Assembly: GCA_025526915.1 (NCBI GenBank)
Contig: JAHLKH010000010.1
Location: forward strand, 209,597-273,596
Direction: 5' to 3'
Source: Entophlyctis helioformis
Taxonomy: Eukaryota; Chytridiomycota; Chytridiomycetes; Chytridiales; Chytriomycetaceae
DNA length: 64,000 bases
Part shown: in pieces, positions 14,132 through 44,725 of the stretch
How the letters are laid out: the number at the start of each line of letters is the position of its first letter
Position numbering within the stretch: position 1 is the first letter of the stretch
Notes under the pieces: generated by a model
The model's input: only the letters and a program-made list of their open reading frames with translations
Database searches by the model: none
What the model was told of the DNA's origin: nothing
Position numbers and translations under genes: made by a program

Positions 14132-16926
14132 TCAGACGGCTTCCAGCGGCGACTCTTCGGGCTCAGACTCTTCTGCAATCCCTGCAGGGCCGCGCGCGCT
14201 CGACCCAGCCATCATCAGACGCGCCGGCGTGGGGTTGCCAACCGGCGATCCTGCAACGGCCGCACGCCGCGCTTGGGCGGCCCAGCAGCCGAGGGCGACG
14301 GGCCCCTGCAGCACCGCCCGCATGGCGTATCGTGTCTTGGCGCGGCCGCCTCCTACCACCACATTGCTGGAGCCGGAGACGGCCCGACTGGCGACTCGCC
14401 ATGCGGTGACGTGGTGGTTGCCGACGATCCGGGAGCAGCGCGCATCGACTCCATGAGGTAGCCACGCCGGCCTCGGCCACCGGTCGCGACGGACGGGGGC
14501 AGCATCGAGCCCATCGACGTGGATGCGCTGCCGAACCCATTCACTGGATGCGACGTCGACAGACTGCCGTGGAATAAGCCTGCACCGGCCGAGCTGGAGA
14601 GGGACCCCGAGCTCCCGCCAGAGCCGCTGCCGGGAACGAGGGACGGCGTCGACGCAGACAGCGGCGACAGAGACGTGGCGTTGCTGGCAAAGTTGAGGAG
14701 CGGATGGTCGGACGGACTGACCGACTTTTGCCATGCCTGCGTAAAGTACTTTTCAATGTCCGTGTTGAGCGGAGCATGGCGGGGATCGGCGACGAGACCC
14801 CAGAGGCGGATCGCGCAATGGCCTGGCCAGCAGACATCATGGCAACGTCGTCGCCGCCGCCGCCCGCGATCGAAATGGAGGTCACCATGCCACTTGTGCC
14901 GGCCGACCCTGCGCTCACGCCGGACATGGCAGAGATTTGGCTGGATGCGCTGATGCTCTGCACCATGAGGCACCCCCGTTGCTGCCGACGCTCGTGACGC
15001 TGCTGCGCTCTTCCATGGGCGAGATGGGGCTTGCCACGTCCATCGACATGGCTCCTGCCTCGGATACTGCGTTTGCGGCGGCAAGCTCGCGCTCGCGTCT
15101 CAGCAACAGGTACCAGAGAGCAGACGCCTGGTCGCATGCATTCGAGTGCACCGACGCCAGAATGGACTGCACGTCAAAGCCGATCGCCTCGAGTTTGGCC
15201 GCCAGAAGCATCTCTCGCTCGTTCCTGCGAGCAGCGGCTCGTCTGGCAGTCCGGCTGCCGGCGTTCCAGGCGGAGGCTGCGGCGCAACATAGTCTGTGTA
15301 CCACGGGTGCCGGAACGCGTCTGCAATGGTGATGCGCTCGCTTGGGTTGATCTTGAGGAACCGAGACACAAAATCCTTGCTCACTGGCCATGCGCGTCTT
15401 GGAGCGTCAGCCGATTGCAGCCACAAAGTGCATGGCACGAGCAGCGGTCTCACCGTCTGACAGAAACTCTGGAAACTCATAGTCCAACTCGGTGATCTTC
15501 TTGTGCGTCATGGCATCGTTGTCCTCGTCAAAGGGCAGGTATCCGCAGAGCAGCGTGTACAGAATGACACCTGTTCAGTGCGCCATTGCAAAGATTAGTC
15601 AGTCAACCGGCCAGCCAGCCAACTGGTAGATCATGCATGACAATTCAAGCCATGTCCGCCATGGCAAGTCCCACTTGCCTAGCGACCAAATGTCTGCCTC
15701 CGGGCCAGAGTACCGCCTTCCAGAGACGATTTCTGCGAATGCAAGAGCAGCCGTGTCAGTCGAGCTGGTGCATGCACAGCCCACCATCCGATACGCGGTC
15801 TCACCAGGAGAAGCATATGCAGACGATCCGCAGTATGTATCGAGCAGCTTGGTGTTCTCATAGTCGCGCGTGAACCCAAAGTCGATCAGCTTGACATGCA
15901 GATCATCTGTCAACAGAATGTTTTCCAGTTTCAAGTCGCTGCGATCGGGTTCACCCCGCCAAACACACATGTCAGCGCGTCAGCCGCAGCTCCCAGTTTC
16001 CAGGGACAGAGGCTGTCCAAGACAGGCAACAGGCAGGCAGAAGGCACACGCCGCTCACCGATGCACAAAGTTCTTTTCGTGGCACTGGGCCACGGCGTCC
16101 ATGATCTGGCCAAAGATGCGACGGCATTCCGGCAGCTGGTCATCGAGACGGCCGTGCTTGACGATATAGTCGAATGCCTCGCCGCCGTTGCAGAACTCCA
16201 TGACCATGTAGATCCGGCTCTCGGTGCACAGCACCTCGTACAGCTGCGCAATGTTTGGGTGCCGCATCTGCCGCCAGGCTTCAATCTGTGAGCATGGCAT
16301 GGCATGGCATGCATGGCGGGTGAGTGGTCTGCAAGACGATCAAGGCGTGGCCGGCCCCTCGGGCTCACCTCTCGGACAAGGGCCGGAGCATGAATCTTGT
16401 CGACAATCTTGACCGCCACCTGGTGGCCCGTCAGCTTGTGGCGGCCGAGCTTGACCTTGCCGAACGTGCCTGCACAGGCCGACGCCGACACCAACGCCGA
16501 CAGATGGGCAAGGGGCAATCAGTGTCCGAAAGCGGGCCAGCGAGCGAGCAGCCCGGCCAGCGGTACCTTCGCCAATGGTCTTGCCGAGGGTGTAGTTGCC
16601 CACGAGCGGCACCGAGGTCGACTGCAGAAAGTTGAGCAGGTCGTTCTGCTGCGACACCGACAGCTGTTGGCCATACGGATGTGCCGCATGCGAGTGTGTG
16701 AGTGTGCGTCAGTGTGCCAGCTCCACCGACACGGAAGCCGCAGCCACGAGCCAGACGGGCGACGGCAAGCGTGTGCGACCGAGGCGGCAGGCGAGAGCCG
16801 GCGGGCCGTCTGTCTGTCTGCACACGGCCGTGGCTCTGCTGCTGTCTGCCAGGCATCTGCTAGAGGGCATCTGCTGCCAGGCGCTGCCAGCCCGCCACAA
16901 GGCCGTACCTTTCGCCGAGCAGACAT
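14132..16926 (-). CDS. CAMKL-family Ser/Thr protein kinase (SNF1/MARK/KIN-like)
   Basis: A first exon MSARRK (ATG at 16924-16926) splices in frame to LSVSQQNDLLNFLQSTSVPL. The kinase domain contains GKTIGEG|TFGKVKLGRH, the VAIK-type lysine in VAVKIVDK, FVHRDLKLENILL, LIDFGFTRD, a T-loop CGSSAYASPE, DIWSLGVILYTLLCGYLPF and FLKINPSERITIADAFRHPW, so it should be active. A UBA-like helix set follows (KLEAIGFDVQSILASVHSNA), as in the AMPK-related family. The C-terminal 250 residues are Ser/Gly/Ala-rich and continue only if single bases are restored near 14972 (G5 run), 14782 (C4 run) and 14382 (G3 run); a short conserved-looking end EKYFTQAWQKSV lies within. The exact subfamily is not resolved. 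Confidence 0.85.
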
Positions 16927-17342
16927 TATTCAGAATGGTGATGGAAAGACGGGCCCGGTTCTCATACCATTACCCCTGGTGGAATTGCTGTGATTGGCCG
17001 ATCCTGGTGGGATCGCTGTGATTGGTCGATCTAGAGAGCCCTTGCGCAGTGCTGACACTGCGCGATGCGAGCACAGCAACGGCAGTGGTGCAGGTAGCAG
17101 CGCCTGCTGTCTCGCTGGGCGGTGCGTGTGTGTCCTCCATGAATAAAGAGGGGCGAATGCATAGTCATGTGCAACGCTCTCTCTCTCTCTGAGGAGCATG
17201 CCATTCCACACACACACAGACCAGTGCTCCATTCATTGCCGCCAAACAATCAGAGCATGCCAATGCAAACAAACACCAGATCGCGACTTGCCACGACACA
17301 CAACAACACGCAACAAAAAACCAACAAGCACGCCCAACACAC
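16927..17342. promoter_or_regulatory. divergent upstream region with two CCAAT boxes
   Basis: Two near-identical units ctgtgattggccgatc and ctgtgattggtcgatc occur at about 16988 and 17018, each carrying CCAAT on the minus strand, 60-100 bp upstream of the kinase start. Further right are a (ct)n run at 17177-17190 and cacacaca. The region also lies 5' of the XPG-Fanzor gene. No terminal inverted repeat is evident beyond an 8-bp ggtcgatc that is inverted at 24003. Confidence 0.45.
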
Positions 17343-20300
17343 ATGGGAGTCGTCGGCGCGACTCCTCCCATCGACAAAGCAGGTGGTAGCAAAACCTTTG
17401 ATCCCACAAACCCTCTCTCGGGTGCAATTCAGGTCGTGGTACAGCCCCATCAAACACTGCAGCAGCACAACACAGAGCGTCCGCCCATCCAGTGTGTTGT
17501 GCATGTGGACGTTCTCAGTCTTTTTGCCGGCGATATCTACAAAGCAGCACCAATACTGCTGGCACAGCCAGAGGAAAACTGGACGCCGACACTCGAGCCG
17601 CTCATTGCCAGCCTCGCAGCATCGATTGGAAAGCTCCACACAGTCCGGCTCCATGTCGATGGCTTGCTTCTCAACACCAATATCAAGGCTGTCCGCACTG
17701 AGCGGGCACGGGTAAATTTGGAAGCAGCATTGTCGATCCAGACAATGGTGGCCAAGCGAAAAGCAGACCAGAAAGGCAACAGGCTCACAAAGTATGCCAC
17801 TTGCTGCTGTTGATTTGCATACCGTGCTGACTGAGTGCCCTTCCAGGGACGAGATCCAGTCACTCCAGTGGGCGTTTCCATTGACATGCGAGCGTAAGGC
17901 GGCAATCTGTGGGGCCATTGGGGGTCTTCTTGGATACTTTGGGGAAGGGTCATCTGTGTGCCTTTGCAAGAATGAGGCGGATGTTTGCATTGCATGCCGT
18001 GTGCGCGAAGCAAGGTTGGTTGGTCTTCTGCATGCCTCTCCAATCCATGGCTCACGCGCCTTTCTTGACAGCAATGTGCCGGTCGTCGTCATCAGTGGTG
18101 ATACCGACCTTATCTTTCATTGTGCCGGCTATTGCCCTGTCCTGCTGCTGCAAATGCGCGGCAGACAGATTGCGCGGATGAGATCGTACAACCACCCAGG
18201 TGTAGCATCTATTGCAGCCACCTTTGACTTGCCAGACATTCTTGACATCTGCCGGTTGGTGGCAGCCGCAGCGAGAAATGACTATTTTCATTGTGATGAG
18301 ATTGGTATGTTGGCTTGCCTGCTTTGCAATTTTGGATGCCATGCGCTGCGACCTTGACTTACTCGTGATGCTGCAATGATGACTTGCAAGGGATCGTCAC
18401 GGCTGCAAAGTGCATTATGGCATGCATTCGTTTTGAGGCAACATGGGCAGGGATCACTGTCGCAGAGTTCTGTCAACGCCTGCAAGACCCAGACCTTGCC
18501 AGGATGTTTGTGGACGTCTTCAAGGCCTCATTTATGTTGCAGATGTACAAGATCGGCGGCAAGCCTCTTGCTCAATCGTTCAGCAATGCCTTCGCGGTGT
18601 TTCTCGACCGTGACGAAACTGGAGCGGATATTGGAGAGTTCACAGACCAAAGCCATGGTTGTTATGGGGATGTTTTTGCTCAAATGATACCGCTGTAAGT
18701 CTTGCTTTGGATGCACTTGGACAGCATGGCATTGACATGAATGCATGCATCATCCAATGGCAACAGCAGGACTGCCAACAGGACCGCCTCGGCTCGAAAA
18801 AAGTAGGCGTGCTTGTGATCTCTGGAGGATTCTCATGGCACTGACTCTGATGGATGCCACTGGCAGATCTGCCTCTGCATGCACGGCCCGCAGTGGCTGC
18901 TGCTTGAGCCACACGGCACAGCAGCTGAAGGGCAATGCCAGTGGTGCGGTTTGGCACCTTACACGGGATGAAGTCATGGTGCTCGCCAAGCACATTGTCA
19001 ACACAAGGCAACTGGACGACGTTTTTGTCATGCTCAACGGCTGCCGTGTCGTGTTTAGCTGCGTTCTCCGATGCACGGCAGACCTCCTCGCCGACGACAT
19101 TCTCAACGGCCGCGACATCCTTGCTGATATCTGCGAGAATGCAAGCAAGCAGCTGCTGCAGGCTGTGCATGATGGCGTATCGCTAAAGAAGCATATGCAA
19201 GGCTCAGCCCGGCTGGCAAGATTCTTTATCACGCATTGGTGGGTTTTGCGAGGCTTGGATGCGTGTCTTGGCTGTCCACTGCATGCTGTTGCTGATCTTC
19301 AATGCTGTCGGCTTGATCCATTACTGGGCGAGCAGAATGTGATAGCAAGACTGAATGATCGGCTCAAGAAGTATCCAGGCTTGAAATGCGCATCTTTCAG
19401 GCGTCTAAAAACGCCAGGTTTGCTCTGCACGGGTTGACACAGTGTGGCATTGTGTATTCACCACTGATCACGGCATTTGTGTGACAGTCAAGGGTAAAAA
19501 GACAAAGCAGCCGCTCAGAAGGAGCACACGGATTGCGACCCCAGAAGCTGTTGCCGATATTCGCGAAACGGCCATAAAGACGCTCAATGCCCTGACAAAC
19601 CCAACGGATGTCAGGCATGCTGATTTCCAAGTGTCAGAATTTGGCGAGTGTTATGACCAAGCAAAGCAGATGCTGCAGTCGATTATCAATCGAGTACCGG
19701 TGCGTCTTTGCATTTGCTGGCTCTGTTTGCATGTGACGGCTTGCTGCGATTGCTTATCCTTCCACTCAACAGGCCGTCAAGCCACCAAAACCATGCAAGA
19801 TGCTGCTGCCACCTCGAGCTGCAGATGATAGAGGCACAGATTGCGACAAGGTCTTTCACATTGGTGTGCTTCAAGACACAAGGACGACTGTGAGTTGAAC
19901 TGCAGGCTTGTGATTGCGAGCATCTTGTGCACATTCAAGATGCATGCCTAACATTGCATTCAACCACGGCAGGATCCATACCTGGTCACACCGGCCATGC
20001 AGGCTGAGCGTGATAAGGAGCGAGCTGAGCAAGCTGAGAAGGCCAAGACCAAGAAGTTCATCCAGGAGCACAAGAAGGATGCAAGCAGGCAAGCCCGCCA
20101 GGCTCCATCTGAGGACGAGACACGGGCGTAAGTGGCATATGGCATGGCATGTGCCTTGAGTGTGTGTGCTGACCGGTGCGTTCTTTGACAGATATGAGCG
20201 TGGTGAAAGATCGGCGATAGAGCAGATGCTTGAAAAGATCCACCGCATGATGGCATTGCCAGTCATGACAGCTGCTGCTGCCATCCATGGCAATGAGGCA

Positions 20301-23300
20301 AGGCCAGTGGAGAGCACATACGATCGCCCTGAGCAGATTGTCAAAATGGAGGTATGAGTTTGGATTGCCATGTTGCTCTGCATGTCTGGCTTTGTGTATG
20401 TTGACTTGTGCTACATACAGGAAATGCTCTCTGGAGATCCAATGCTTGCAAAGTATTTTGGACGCCAGGCCAAGACGGCGCCGGCAACACAGACCCGCGG
20501 TTCGGTCTCAGAAAGCATCTTCAATGGCGTGTACCGATACACGGCCGACGTGCGGCGTGCATGCATCACTATGATCGGCGCCATCGTCGAAGAGCTCGTC
20601 GCACTCGACCCAGATGCACCGCTGCCACTCAAGTTCTGCGTCATGGAGGCCAGGAGGAATGGTGAGATGGAATATGTGTATATTGATCCTGATCACTTCA
20701 AGGACGAGAGCGCGTGGCTCTACGCCGCTGGATGCGTCCTCAGATGGCCAGTTAATGCCCGGCGCATGTACGGCGAAGGCCCGCTCTGCAGCAACACCGA
20801 CATTGCTCACTATGGCGACTTGGTGAGACTTGAGGCGGGCACGATGGTCAAGATCTGCACCTTCACCGACGACACAGCACCAGCAGTAGCAACAGCAGCA
20901 CCAGCAGCAGTAGCCGCCGCATCCAGCAGCACCGATGCCCAACCACCAGCCATCGAGCCACCACTACAACGGGCAGTACCATCGGCAAATGATCTGCTCA
21001 AGGTGCTCACAAACAGCACCTCTAGTGGCGAGGGAGCCGTCACGATGCTTCTGCGATACCTGGGCTACATTCTCACCGGTCAGGAGTCGGTCATGCCGCG
21101 GGCGACAAAGCATGTGGCCCACTCGTGGATTGTGACCATCATGCAGATGATCATCAACCGCGAATGGACACAGCAGATGATCCGGGACAGCATGACCAAG
21201 ATGCGGGCTGGTGTGGCGCGGGCAGCCAAGATGGACGCGACGCAGGCCGGCTCATTGCTGTCAGCCATTGTGCACATGGACGCAAGCACGATGCATGCCG
21301 TTTTGCCTGGCAGGCTTGACGACAGTTTGTGTGCAGCTGCTCGGAACGACATCTACAAAAATCTGGCACGGGGCATCTGTGGCATGCTTGCTGTGCACTT
21401 CATGACCCACCAGTCGATGCTCATTGACTGGGCAATCCACCGACTGATTCCTGGTATATCTGCTGACAAGGCAGCGGAATTTGCCAAGGCAATGGATACA
21501 GCCACCGGGGACGCCACGTCTGGCACGCCACTGTCAACCAGACAAGACGGACGCGTTGTCGAGATCCCACAAGCACTGCACAGGCTCACGGCGGTCGTGC
21601 GCAACAAGTCGCTGTCAGAGGCCGGCAAGTTCAAGCAGTTGTGTGATCTCGCAGGCTCATCCCTCAAGTTGTGTCCGCAGCCTGCAGGCCGCGATCCGTT
21701 TGTCCTCATCACTGAGACCACCCTCTTTTGGGCGGTGATGAGGACAAAGGATGAGCGCATCCGTGGCAATCAGGATCCTGCTTTGCAGGCATTGAGACTA
21801 CAGCTTCTGGCTGCACTTGGTTGGTCGCACTGCCTGTATATGCCATGTGTACACAATTTGATGCTGACACTGCACTTTTCTCCAAGGCTACAAAGATGCC
21901 AAGTCAGCTCTTAAGTTCCCAAAAGGATATCCAAGATGCATTCAGCGCAAGTCGCGAGGTTTCCATCTTTGACATCCTTCTCCCAGGTCTCCGCCCCAAG
22001 AAAGGTCGCTTCCAGACACCTTCAGAAGCCAAAGATGAGATGGACGCGGTTGCCAAGGCCACAGCCAAGGCGACGCGAGAGGCCGATGAGCAGGGTCTGG
22101 ATGGCAAGGAGCGCGAGAAGCATATCAAGGCTGCGATTGATGCTGTGCGTCCAGCAAGACCAGCCAAGGCGATCCTACTTGGCAGCATCATGACGATGGA
22201 TACAGCATCTACCAGCTGGCTCTGGACTGCCGCACAAACCGTCCAGAGTCACCTTGCTGTATGTGGCGTGCTTGAATGCGATGGTGCACACATTGATTCT
22301 GACTGCCGCCTTGATCTGCAGATCCCAACGCGGCGTCTTCAGGCGAGCAGCCGTGGCTTGTTGACGAGGCTGATGGCGAGCCCGATTACATTAACGGCGA
22401 ATGTGAGTTGCTGTGCCAATCCAGACGCGCACTTGTTGTCCACACCGACTGACATGCCATCCACAGCCGCCAATCCAGCCAACCCGTCAGCCGCCAAGCC
22501 ATACACGCCCAATCCTGTAAGTCACTTGCATGCTAAACTCGCGCATTGGTGCACATGCATTGCACATTCCTCACTCATGCCATGGCATGACAGGGCAAGC
22601 GCAACTTTTATGCCTCACAGCGACTGCGCACATCATCAAGCCAACAATCTGTTCACTGACCAAGGCTACCAGACTGTTCGCGTTGTCAGCTTTGATTGGG
22701 GCCAGCGGTACCTGTATGGCGCGTCCAGCATCTTGGTTGATCTCAGAGACTTTTCGTATAAGCTCGAGTCCAACTACGTGCTCTCCTCTGGCATGTTTCA
22801 AGCTGAGCGTGACTTTCAGCGGTGGTATGCATGCAATGACTCTGCCACGTGCACTCTTGACCAGATCAACTCACAGTGCCTGCCTCCTGTGCCAGGCTCA
22901 ACAATCGATATGCCAAGGCAGCCGACATCCAGGCGGCCATTGCATTCAAGACAGCAAAGCATGCCGATCCAAACGTCAAGCCTGGCGAGAGAGCCTTTTG
23001 GGATCTGCGCTGCCATGCGTACTGCACGCCATTCCTGAATGCACGGGTACGTTTTCTCTGTTCTGGATGCCCATTGACATGGCCGCCATGCTGCTTGATC
23101 GCCTGCTGATTGCACTGGATGGCATGGCATGCATGGCATTCCACAGAAGGTCAAGGCCAAGCGGTTCACCATGCGCAGCAGCCGCACGTCTGATCGCGGA
23201 AACGCTCTTGAGGGCATCATGAAGCTGGCAGGATCGACCACTGGAGAGCGCGCATCTGCTGCGTCTCAAGGCCGCTGTGACAAGCCAACAGAGAAGGACA

Positions 23301-23463
23301 TTCCCGTTGTCTGGGCATTTGGCATCGACTTTACAGGTCAAGGTGGCCGGCACGCTGTGTTTGAGAAGTTTCTCATCAGGCATCTGCGGTCGTCTGGATA
23401 TGCCTATGTGCGTCTGATGCCACGCTGTCCATCCATCCATCCATCCATCTGTGCACCCAACTG

Positions 23464-23494
<31 letters not shown>

Positions 23495-23946
23495 TCTACC
23501 GCTGCAACGAGAACCTGACCAGCCAGATGTGCCCGCAGTGCAAGCAGCGGATCCCATACGAGAACCGCACCAACCTGCGACGCTACGAGTGCATACCATG
23601 CACGACCGTCTACCACCGCGATGTGCTTGGAGCCACCAACATCGGGATGGTTGCACTGTGGCATCTGCTCTTTGGACACCGGCCGCTCTACTTGACACAC
23701 ACCAAAACCGACAGCAATCCAGCCACGACAGAGTACCTTGCAGACATCGAGGCAATGCATCTATTCATCCAGGATCGTGCACGAAATGCTCCGTCTGTTG
23801 TCCCACAGCCTCAAACGCGGAAACACTTCAAGTCGCATGTGGCCTCATGGGACCAGATCAGCCTGCCGTCCTGTGGCGTTCAAGACACGGTCCATCCGTC
23901 GCCAGCTGCGACCAACACGCAGACAGCCTGCCCTCAAGTCACTTGA
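17343..23946 (+). CDS. XPG/FEN1-type nuclease joined to Fanzor (TnpB-like) RuvC nuclease
   Basis: One continuous chain of about 16 exons links two nuclease modules. The start MGVVGATPPID matches the MG[VI]xGL opening of the FEN1/XPG family. It is followed by VVHVDVLSLFAGDIY (N-region Asp), VRLHVDGLLLNTNIKAVRTE (second acidic site), then KNEADVCIACRVREA and VVVISGDTDLIFHC (XPG-I acidic sites), and DILDICRLVAAAARNDYF (the position of LCILxGxDY). A long middle with no domain I recognise follows (19.4-22.6 kb). The C-terminus is Fanzor-like: RuvC-I VVSFDWGQRYLYGAS; AFGIDFTGQGGRHAVFEKFL; the Glu of RCNENLTSQMCPQC with a CPQC...C..C zinc ribbon; and RuvC-III Asp in YHRDVLGATNI. Joins such as ERDFQRW|LNNRYAKAADIQ keep frame. 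One-base shifts are needed near 21925, 22185 and 22650. Two overlapping genes remain possible. Confidence 0.7.
23463..23493. repeat. (CA)n microsatellite in a Fanzor intron
   Basis: About 15 ca units follow (catc)n at 23430-23450 inside the last intron, immediately before the acceptor cacacag and the zinc-ribbon exon. The run may serve as the polypyrimidine-poor 3' end of this intron. Confidence 0.7.
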
Positions 23947-24000
23947 CCTGCATCCCACACAGTGACTTGTTTGACTACCAACTTTGAATCGGGGCACCTC

Positions 24001-24084
24001 CCGATCGACCTAACGGGTCACTTTTTCTAACGATAAAGGTAGACCTCGTTGGATGTGCCTCGCCCGCCTGTCGTCGCATGCTCG
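24001..24084 (+). other. conserved right-end blocks of the Fanzor locus (candidate guide-RNA/terminus)
   Basis: Two blocks just 3' of the Fanzor stop recur outside coding sequence next to the decayed copy at 44.5 kb. Block A (24001-24025) matches 44683-44707 at 22 of 25 bases. Block B (24071-24084) matches 44712-44725 at all 14. Within block A the arms GACC and GGTC are identical in both copies while the loop differs, which suits an RNA hairpin. In TnpB/Fanzor systems the guide RNA derives from the element's right end, so this is the natural candidate. Confidence 0.45.
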
Positions 24085-24680
24085 TTGCTGACTCGAACCT
24101 TCCATCGTGTGATATGCGGGCTTCTTTCGACGCCTCTTGCGACGAATTTAATTCCAAAATCCTTGGTAATTGTATGAATATCGGGCCTTATAAAGGATTT
24201 TTCAGATTTCGGGCTTGAAAGTCACGCTCAAGTCAGCCAGCAAGTGCGACACGACCGCCATCTACACTGCGTTCCAGATGCAGAAGACAGCCATATCAGT
24301 CGCGATAGTCTTTGACCCGCGACGCTCGGAAGGTGCACGGTTCCTGATGCTCTCTCGTGTGGGCGGCATCTCCACTGCTCGCCGTGCCATCAACGCCAAC
24401 CTGCTCGACCCACCCACCCGTTTGGCGACGGTTCATGCTGCATCATGTGCGGCGAGGATCTGGAAGCACGCTGGAGATTGCGCACTTTGCGCTCGAGTGC
24501 ACAGACGAGCGGATGTGGCTATTCGTACGGCGCATGGGCAGTGTGACTTGGACGCATGGCTTGCAGCTGCACGCGCCATTGCAACAAACGAGAATGTGGG
24601 ACAACCACAAACACGGCATGCTGTAGTGCACAGCGTGCTTTGTGGAGATCAAGACCCATACTCATGCCAGGCTCCTTCAT
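24085..24680. other. no assignable gene
   Basis: The first 150 bp are unusually AT-rich for the window (aatttaattccaaaatcc near 24145 and a TATA-like ccttataaagg near 24185). They are followed by a plus-strand open frame of 189 codons from 24215 that I cannot assign. It has no domain, and its residues look compositional after about codon 60. It could be a decayed gene using the TATA-like box. Confidence 0.4.
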
Positions 24681-44479: not shown

Positions 44480-44725
44480 GAGCGATTGCATGGCATTCCA
44501 CAGATGGTCAATGCCAAGCGTGTGGCCGTGCGCATCAGGCGATCAGACATGCTTTGAGGGCATCATGCAGATGGCAGGCTGGACCGCTGGACGTCGTGCA
44601 TCTCAATGCACCTTGTCACGTGATATGACACGTGACACGAGTTCCATCCAATGATTTCGGGCATCGATTTTCTGGGTCTGGCCCGATTGACCAAACGGGT
44701 CACCTTTACGTTCGTCGCATGCTCG
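44480..44725 (+). pseudogene. decayed copy of the Fanzor C-terminal region and right end
   Basis: Positions 44488-44606 align with 23131-23270 inside the intact locus. For example cattccacagatggtcaa corresponds to cattccacagaaggtcaa, and gagggcatcatgcagatgg to gagggcatcatgaagctgg, with small deletions and stops between. The retained acceptor and HGIPQ/KVKAKR region are recognisable. Right-end blocks follow at 44683-44707 and 44712-44725. The remnant lacks the zinc ribbon and RuvC-III and lies between the Nudix and DPH1 genes. Confidence 0.7.
44615..44635. promoter_or_regulatory. paired CACGTG sites upstream of DPH1
   Basis: GTCACGTGAT (44615-44624) and GACACGTGAC (44626-44635) lie 160-180 bp before the DPH1 start. 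They match the palindrome in the RRP7 promoter in their CACGTGA core. Confidence 0.45.

Follow-up and report, generated by a model that had tools for sequence, protein, structure and literature searches.

A chytrid TIR transposon gene that probably fuses an XPG/FEN-like domain to a TnpB/Fanzor-type RuvC nuclease

Fanzor nucleases have been described within different kinds of mobile elements. According to excerpts of PMC3627910, MuDR-like elements carrying Fanzor1 have MuDR-like terminal inverted repeats (TIRs) and 9-bp target site duplications (TSDs) without a MuDR transposase, and in MCi-2 of Mucor circinelloides a near-identical, Fanzor-bearing 3′ part occurs with different 5′ parts and without TIRs. 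Excerpts of PMC10711439 give DPG as the Fanzor fingerprint at RuvC1, and those of PMC11423790 describe in PpFz1 a small, cyclophilin-binding insertion called FRI.

Here we describe a gene in a window of 64,000 nucleotides, the whole stretch of DNA that was analyzed, from Entophlyctis helioformis (Chytridiomycota). With Fanzor1/Fanzor2 such as SPu-1-1p (SpuFz1) of Spizellomyces it shares the RuvC D-E-D residues, the zinc ribbon, an alternative glutamate six residues before this ribbon, its residence in a TIR transposon of a chytrid, and a conserved 3′ non-coding end. It differs from them in DWG at the place of DPG, in length (about 1815 codons instead of 633 aa), in 17 exons instead of a single ORF, and in an XPG-like N-domain; a profile search did not find a Fanzor in the PDB. 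The Mucorales MuDR-like Fanzor1 elements ROr-4, PBl-3 and MCi-4 likewise have TIRs, TSDs of about 9 bp and no transposase in the element, and the E. helioformis genome is also without a MULE match, but the excerpts of PMC3627910 mention no XPG-like domain in them. MCi-2 is alike in joining a near-identical 3′ part to different 5′ parts; judged by the same excerpts, the E. helioformis element differs in having TIRs and in a 5′ part that is homologous and only diverged. PpFz1 is likewise a Fanzor with an extra domain, although FRI, as presented in the excerpts of PMC11423790, is not a nuclease-like N-domain. XPG, Rad2, FEN1 and EXO1 share with the N-domain an MGxxG start, seven ordered acids and the EAD and DxD doublets, whereas the N-domain lies below detection by HMMs of Pfam and PDB sequences and is joined to a nuclease of the RNA-guided type.

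The element spans positions 16952-24187 (~7.2 kb) and ends in imperfect 23-bp TIRs; it and all features below are read on the + strand. Its 5′ repeat GGCCCGGTTCTCATACCATTACC (16952-16974) has 86 matches in its own genome with at most three mismatches, at least two of them reversed 3′ ends. The 3′ end CTTGGTAATTGTATGAATATCGGGCC (24162-24187), which repeats the 5′ end imperfectly in inverted orientation, has 196 at the same tolerance, and the reversed-pattern control gave 0 in both cases. Next to the 5′ repeat lies a subterminal tandem repeat of the CTGGTGGAATCGCTGTGATTGGTCGAT type (16975-17030), with two units of about 28 bp here and three or four in some other copies. When ends were paired, using 84 5′ matches (the 86 less two reversed 3′ ends) and those 100 of the 196 3′ matches that were listed, 30 of 34 elements of 7-10 kb contained an N exon among the matches listed; C6:83999, scored as lacking one, does contain it. 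Duplications of 7-9 bp flank part of the copies: six of 11 same-element flank pairs score at least 7, one of them with a mismatch, as against 4 of 110 swapped pairs, while the window element and four others have none. AAAG is found in 13 of 19 5′ flanks, counted from 20 after removal of L044, a reversed 3′ end. The element is a TIR DNA transposon with well over a hundred copies in the genome, many of them with the same ends, and the exon chain is not a lone odd gene. A lone chimeric gene model was ruled out by the multiple copies of the chain, and contamination by the genome's own EXO1 piece, which agrees with an E. helioformis record at 99% identity.

The original prediction placed one exon chain at 17343-23946. 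It is found there, and its order and strand recur in six divergent copies, in which only exon 1 of C49 and exon 3 of C172 were unmatched. Our model of the window copy comprises 17 exons; the 16 introns between them measure 55-100 nt and are GT-AG throughout, and one of them (22259-22321) was added from a separate comparison. This anatomy very probably represents a single spliced gene of about 1815 codons. Between the exons of the N-domain and those of the RuvC end, both treated below, lie exons 4 and 5 (18767-18802, 18867-19417), the latter with a frame matched unbroken by C298, C50, C172 and C49, a linker region of exons 6-9 (19488-19699, 19773-19889, 19973-20127, 20192-20351), and exon 10 (20421-21819), whose 466 aa contain no known domain and which probably supplies the recognition half of the TnpB-like region. 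They are followed by exons 11-13 (21887-22258, 22322-22402, 22467-22516), with exon 11 broken in the window copy.

As predicted, no stop survives splicing between the two parts, the C-terminal breaks treated below apart. Exons 1-10 of the window give 1280 codons with 0 stops across nine GT-AG introns, and C43 and C129, two of the five other full-length close copies, have exons 6-17 open, which places the N-domain and the RuvC/zinc-ribbon end in one frame. Each of the six full-length close copies, counting that of the window, is interrupted somewhere in its 17 exons. Five of them carry lesions in the N-terminal exons; the window copy shows the reverse pattern, N-terminally open and C-terminally broken, and for this reason the lesions look random. 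The breaks, predicted as three one-base shifts, are real, but the window copy is short by 3 nt in exon 11 and 2 nt in exon 14 against all five other copies. The gaps that could be placed are one of 2 nt and two of 1 nt, and the remaining base lost from exon 11 falls outside the stretches aligned there. The proposed single fused gene holds insofar as one frame joins both parts, but it belongs to a multi-copy transposon, and small deletions have broken its copy in the window. The introns of the window are also present, judged by eye, in C193 and C6. N and C exons are paired on one strand, 4.5-9 kb apart, at at least 62 of 123 places (kept by eye from 153 matches once rows for one and the same place had been merged, and compared with the 150 C-exon matches listed), with 0 and 0 in the controls. 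The comparison of copies supports an old pairing of N-domain and RuvC end that is under selection.

Which family does the N-domain belong to? Of the features named in the original prediction, the FEN1-like start MGVVGATPPID is present, as are the paired acidic sites. Exon 1 (17343-17791) contains the MG[VI]xG start and the first two acidic motifs (D56, D106 of the spliced window protein), exon 2 (17847-18304) the EAD (E193, D195), DTD (D235, D237) and NDY (D295) motifs, and exon 3 (18391-18694) the end of the XPG-like domain with a GIVTAAK stretch. The signature of XPG/FEN type, M[GT][VI]xG followed by seven acidic residues in order, was composed after both the N-domain and EXO1 families had been seen; it fits six of seven N-domains with an N-terminus, 25 of 28 EXO1 sequences and 0 of 120000 shuffles. 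The one miss is C193, in its last motif. Six diverged copies begin with M[GT][VI]xG, T being the second residue in C6 and C172. In hhalign the VDG, EAD, DTD and NDY motifs align in register with EXO1, and in this register five of the six invariant acidic columns of the N-domain alignment coincide with EXO1 acids, at a probability of only 3-8%. In EXO1 the seven acids are the catalytic ones. A profile-profile comparison scored 30.0, against 298 of 300 decoys that did not exceed 27.0 and two above that were numerical artefacts; a second alignment scored 26.3, with two of 300 decoys above, one an artefact. HMM searches of the exons, of alignment A1 and of three further N-domains gave no XPG/FEN family in Pfam, searches by profile and by single sequence gave none among PDB sequences, and a whole-genome search with XPG_I listed four places, none in this contig. 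A structure model of exon 2 alone from its single sequence reached a pLDDT of 40.6 and was therefore not used. For exons 1-3, omega is 0.17-0.52 in 12 comparisons, a 13th being saturated, and by this measure the N-domain is under purifying selection. The acids are retained in copies whose exons 1-3 stand at dS >1 from the window, the exceptions seen being the single copies C193 (last motif) and L073 (broken frame). We consider the XPG/FEN-like 5′-nuclease identity likely rather than proven: motifs and a marginal profile match sustain the predicted assignment, while the HMM searches and the exon 2 model do not.

The C-terminal end carries the RuvC/zinc-ribbon core that had been predicted. Exon 14 (22594-22824) holds RuvC-I, with the D of FDWG at 22694-22696 downstream of a break in the window copy; exons 15 and 16 (22896-23046, 23147-23407) follow, and exon 17 (23494-23946) contains the alternative glutamate (23509-23511), the zinc ribbon, the RuvC-III D (23620-23622) and the stop. 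FDWG, NENLTSQMCPQC and HRDVLGATNI are its RuvC motifs, and its active-site residues are D-E-D. PF07282 is matched with 36.1 bits (cut-off 26.3, E 7.2e-9), and guided_TnpB by all six members at E up to 1, the best being 1.6e-7, with the first member at 18.7 bits relative to a curated cut-off of 100. The alternative glutamate lies in NENLTSQMC, and its distance of six residues to the first zinc-ribbon Cys is invariant in 6/6. RuvC1 reads FDWG or GIDWG in all six members and DPG in none, and no TnpB chain was retrieved from the PDB by profile either. By its motifs the end is of TnpB/Fanzor type; the predicted name Fanzor applies only partly, supported by the TnpB-family RuvC, zinc ribbon and alternative glutamate and qualified by DWG for DPG.

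Downstream, positions 23973-24187 form a conserved, hairpin-rich non-coding 3′ end, a candidate omegaRNA scaffold; all 25 other copies compared match the window there at 82-98% identity. This identity alone was not counted as constraint, the whole 3′ module being alike between subfamilies; constraint is argued because the similarity persists in five copies whose preceding stretch is just 15-49% identical. Apical loops of the hairpins are swapped between copies for other self-complementary ones, and RNAalifold, on an alignment omitting L040, finds changes on both sides in only two of 48 pairs. Single-sequence folding gives a z of -2.03, with 6 of 200 shuffles folding equally well. Rfam returned nothing above thresholds, and three matches under gathering scores were taken as chance. 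An omegaRNA at this end is somewhat favored, and its guide would be read from the flank directly after it.

How else could these observations be explained? Two separate genes might lie head to tail in one transposon, the joined frame being an artefact of splice-site choice. Lesioned N-terminal exons beside fully open exons 6-17 in two close copies would suit such an arrangement, as would an identity that climbs toward the 3′ end, as though the modules had different histories; the long open frame across ten exons and nine introns, the introns common to C193 and C6 (by eye) and the reverse pattern of the window make it quite improbable. We also hold it unlikely that the N-domain is some other acidic-motif domain or PIN-like fold with coincidental flap-nuclease motifs. 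Seven acids in EXO1 order, both x-spaced doublets, the start kept in six diverged copies, the empty shuffles and the coinciding columns in the hhalign register weigh more in our view than the Pfam and PDB-sequence searches without XPG, the low hhalign probability, the poor exon 2 model and a pattern drawn up post hoc. XPG relatives lacking known nuclease activity exist in the Mkt1 or Asteroid branch, and an XPG-like domain that has lost its chemistry and merely binds DNA or RNA would leave RuvC as the sole active nuclease; given that the acids are kept at dS >1, with exceptions in single copies, this appears rather doubtful.

A different alternative concerns movement, and we give it an even chance: the element would be a non-autonomous passenger served by a DDE transposase in trans, and its fusion protein would only protect or home it. 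The TIRs and the duplications of 7-9 bp resemble those of DDE elements, and the MuDR-like Fanzor1 elements with 9-bp TSDs lack a MuDR transposase (excerpts of PMC3627910). On the other side, MULE transposase had 0 genome matches (its control matched in 3 of 14), and IS1595/Merlin-type and Transposase_mut (IS256-type) enzymes had none in the assembly with positive controls, although introns could hide a gene; hAT was left out of these negatives, as the control of its search gave no match. Very unlikely, in our estimate, is a fusion protein that is itself the transposase, self-sufficient without a DDE enzyme through a flap-nuclease-type and an RNA-guided RuvC site, in which case staggered cuts of both sites would give the 7-9 bp duplications.

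The explanation that we prefer for the whole, and regard as fairly probable from the sequence, is a TIR transposon gene fusing an XPG/FEN-like domain, a long middle and a TnpB/Fanzor-type RuvC. The sequences themselves establish the ends, copy number and single frame, the retention of acidic active-site residues in both domains, and the purifying selection acting on the N-domain. For bacterial TnpB it has been proposed that the empty site is cut so that repair restores the element. In the fusion, the RuvC half would cut the matching empty site, at the donor site or on the allele, after excision, and repair there would copy the element back. Bubbles, R-loop borders and 5′ flaps are substrates of XPG-type relatives; the XPG-like half would make or trim a second cut, in the displaced strand. 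This division of labor between the halves is a tentative suggestion.

Among 5.77 billion protein sequences, none of 8000 scored candidates reached E 1e-3 with window exons 1-10 as query, nor did any of 8000 with exons 8-17 of C43, scored over residues 600-1010; relatives may be missed in these searches through length limits or split gene models. In viral contigs the N-domain, the zinc ribbon and EXO1 had no match, and a pairing of Fanzor and XPG was not found in the literature searched, a collection with few subscription papers and no bioRxiv. As far as checked, a fusion of a flap-nuclease-like domain with an RNA-guided-type cutter appears undescribed.

In Type V-like nucleases both strands are cut by one RuvC site. 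The fusion would show that evolution has equipped an RNA-guided cutter with a further active site, one specific for structure, and it is a candidate tool in which a single chain also processes the end produced by its cut. Since the genome contains numerous copies and divergent subfamilies, the kept residues, introns and RNA parts are directly testable. Should a partner transposase be lacking, how Fanzor-bearing elements move becomes a question again.

The exon chain of the window belongs to a multi-copy family, since three of its exons match their own genome (29.57 Mb, 482 contigs) at least 169, 150 and 153 times; these totals are lower bounds, with 86, 150 and 150 candidates scored. The boundaries of the element are sharp and common to the aligned copies, at about 16952 and 24187, and its ends form imperfect inverted repeats, GGCCCGGTTCTCATACCATTACC at the 5' end and GGCCCGATATTCATACAATTACC at the 3' end. 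Allowing up to three mismatches, the 5' pattern is found 86 times in the genome, at least two of these being reversed 3' ends, and the 3' pattern 196 times, against no match for the reversed patterns used as a control. Pairing of 84 5' ends with 100 of the 196 3' ends gave 48 same-strand pairs less than 30 kb apart, of which 34 span 7–10 kb and two about 1 kb, the latter probably internal deletion derivatives. Short elements with the same ends lie at C35:164492-165480 (989 bp), C436:7860-8911 (1052 bp) and C199:20580-22748 (2169 bp; C-numbers denote contigs of the assembly) and are probably non-autonomous. The elements on C6 and C49 are longer (9.1 and 9.8 kb), with about 1.3 and 2.2 kb more than the window between 5' end and exon 1; by eye, the ORF listing shows no obvious gene in these stretches (fetched copies L068, 7480-9300, and L070, 150-2700). 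About 20 kb from the window element, 117 bp at 44487-44603 share 73–78% identity with the stretch around intron 15/exon 16 in element copies.

The exon chain of the original prediction, an XPG/FEN1-type nuclease fused to a Fanzor RuvC nuclease, is present at 17343-23946. Its uninterrupted frame was borne out for spliced exons 1–10, which give 1280 stop-free codons, and the frame shifts reported with it correspond to missing bases: compared with every one of five close, full-length copies (C43, C129, C139, C18 and C30), the window lacks 3 nt from exon 11 and 2 nt from exon 14. Exons 6–17 are open in C43 and C129, exons 1–5 are lesioned in all five, and C139, C18 and C30 carry further lesions spread over several exons; neither the window nor any of these five can be read through all 17 exons. 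The same exon order is kept by six divergent copies, among them C50 and C298, a closely related pair. The frame of window exon 5 is matched without a break in C298, C50, C172 and C49, the introns around exons 5–10 are by eye also present in C193 and C6, and the exon 3 donor resembles a GC donor in C6, C298 and C49. Among the matches listed, 62 of 123 places with N-terminal exons have C-terminal exons on the same strand 4.5–9 kb further downstream, compared with none upstream or on the opposite strand. As read from the genomic sequence, N-domain and RuvC end share one predicted frame.

What kind of domain does the N-terminal half encode? The XPG/FEN assignment is partly supported, by motif layout and hhalign register, but sequence searches of Pfam and the PDB found no XPG match in the N-domain; an XPG_I search of the whole genome hit four places, none on the window's contig. 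The family has the layout of EXO1/FEN1: a start M[GT][VI]xG (window, C193, C6, C50, C172, C49), followed in order by a strand ending in D56, HVDG (D106), EAD (E193, D195), [GN]D[ST]D (D235, D237) and [NT]D[YFC] (D295). E152, E193, D195, D235, D237 and D295 are invariant in the alignment of element copies, and the last five fall in the hhalign register on acids of an alignment of 28 EXO1 members, which we take to be the catalytic ones. Statistically, the hhalign support is marginal: the 17-row N-domain alignment scores 30.0 (probability 8%), with 298 of 300 column-shuffled decoys at or below 27.0 and two giving absurd scores on template ends, while another, 13-row alignment reaches 26.3 and is exceeded by two decoys, one again an artefact of this kind and the other at 26.9; an unrelated alignment scores 16.6. 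Written as a regular expression, which was composed after the fact, the full order of motifs fits 25 of 28 EXO1 sequences, six of the seven N-domains having an N-terminus and none of 120000 shuffles; its core-only form fits 28 of 28, 11 of 13 and nine of 120000. In exons 1–3, comparing the window with five divergent copies gives omega values of 0.17–0.52 (dS 0.4–3.4; 12 comparisons, a 13th being saturated), and selection has therefore long preserved the domain. Quite probably, it is XPG/FEN-like.

At the other end, exon 17 matches PF07282 with 36.1 bits (cut-off 26.3), and all six members match the NCBI guided_TnpB model, at best with E 1.6e-7; the curated cut-off of this model is 100 bits, and the first member scores 18.7. 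Invariant in all six are DWG, a glutamate six residues ahead of the zinc ribbon and HRD. The Fanzor fingerprint, as given in PMC10711439, combines DPG with the alternative glutamate; the element has the glutamate, but DWG in place of DPG. A profile search of the PDB with this end found no Fanzor or TnpB chain. The predicted Fanzor core holds in its profile matches and glutamate and departs in one motif: the RuvC end seems to have the build of a Fanzor without necessarily being one in the strict sense.

The two halves may differ in their history. Mean identity of window 17343-24187 to the six divergent copies rises from 45% in exon 1 to 92–93% in exons 15 and 16, then falls in the exon 17 tail, a pattern suggesting that elements whose 5' halves are old and have diverged share a homogenised or exchanged RuvC core. 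The 16 introns (17792-23493) are more alike between subfamilies than adjoining exons in comparisons with C193, C6, C172, C49, C298 and C50, and in 61 of 96 cases an intron has higher identity than the exon on either side. Introns 11–15 average 89–96% identity, more than exon 14 shows at its synonymous sites, and intron 13 is 97–100% identical at 40 places (the 40 scored among 174 candidates).

Fanzor elements carry an omegaRNA at their 3' non-coding end, and for this reason the final stretch of about 215 nt (23973-24187) is regarded, with moderate confidence, as a candidate omegaRNA. Here the window shares 82–98% identity with each of the 25 other 3' ends fetched, those of divergent copies among them; for the preceding spacer (exon 17 tail and UTR) the figure is only 15–49% in five divergent copies, and in C193 it is 90%. 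Folded singly, the window stretch gives a z of -2.03, with six of 200 shuffles folding as well. RNAalifold, on the window and 24 of the other 25 ends, proposes 48 pairs, two with changes on both sides. In C49, C67/C50 and C6a, differing self-complementary inserts take the place of one hairpin's apical part. Rfam has no match above its thresholds.

Flank pairs score at least 7 in six of 11 elements, compared with four of 110 swapped pairs; the window, C129, C18, C49 and C2 lack them. AAAG lies within 16 nt of the 5' end in 13 of 19 unique insertions (controls 1, 0, 0), leaving out L044, a reversed 3' end, and in seven of 23 3' flanks (controls 1, 0, 0). Taken over window 16952 and the flanks of 18 other insertions, the sites next to the 5' end are rich in AAAG. 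The window copy lies immediately upstream of a protein kinase-like gene on the minus strand (about 15600-16700, by eye from ORFs). Searches of the assembly for MULE, IS1595/Merlin-type and Transposase_mut found no match; possibly a transposase escaped detection, or is hidden in the unannotated middle (exons 5–13). The flanks of different listed insertions have no long sequence in common, which makes an RNA-guided choice of new sites unlikely.

The RNA-guided step would instead serve retention or homing. A guide would be copied from the flank, the RNA-guided half would cut the matching empty site after excision of the element, and repair of this cut would put the element back, while the XPG-like half might cut or trim at the R-loop border. 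What can be read directly are one predicted frame, two sets of putative active-site residues, selection and a conserved RNA-like 3' end. PMC3627910 already describes Fanzors in TIR transposons that lack a transposase, as well as Fanzor elements whose 5' parts have been exchanged. In the portion of the literature covered, no report was found of a Fanzor or TnpB joined to an XPG-like domain, and the fusion would be of high interest if fold and transcript were confirmed.
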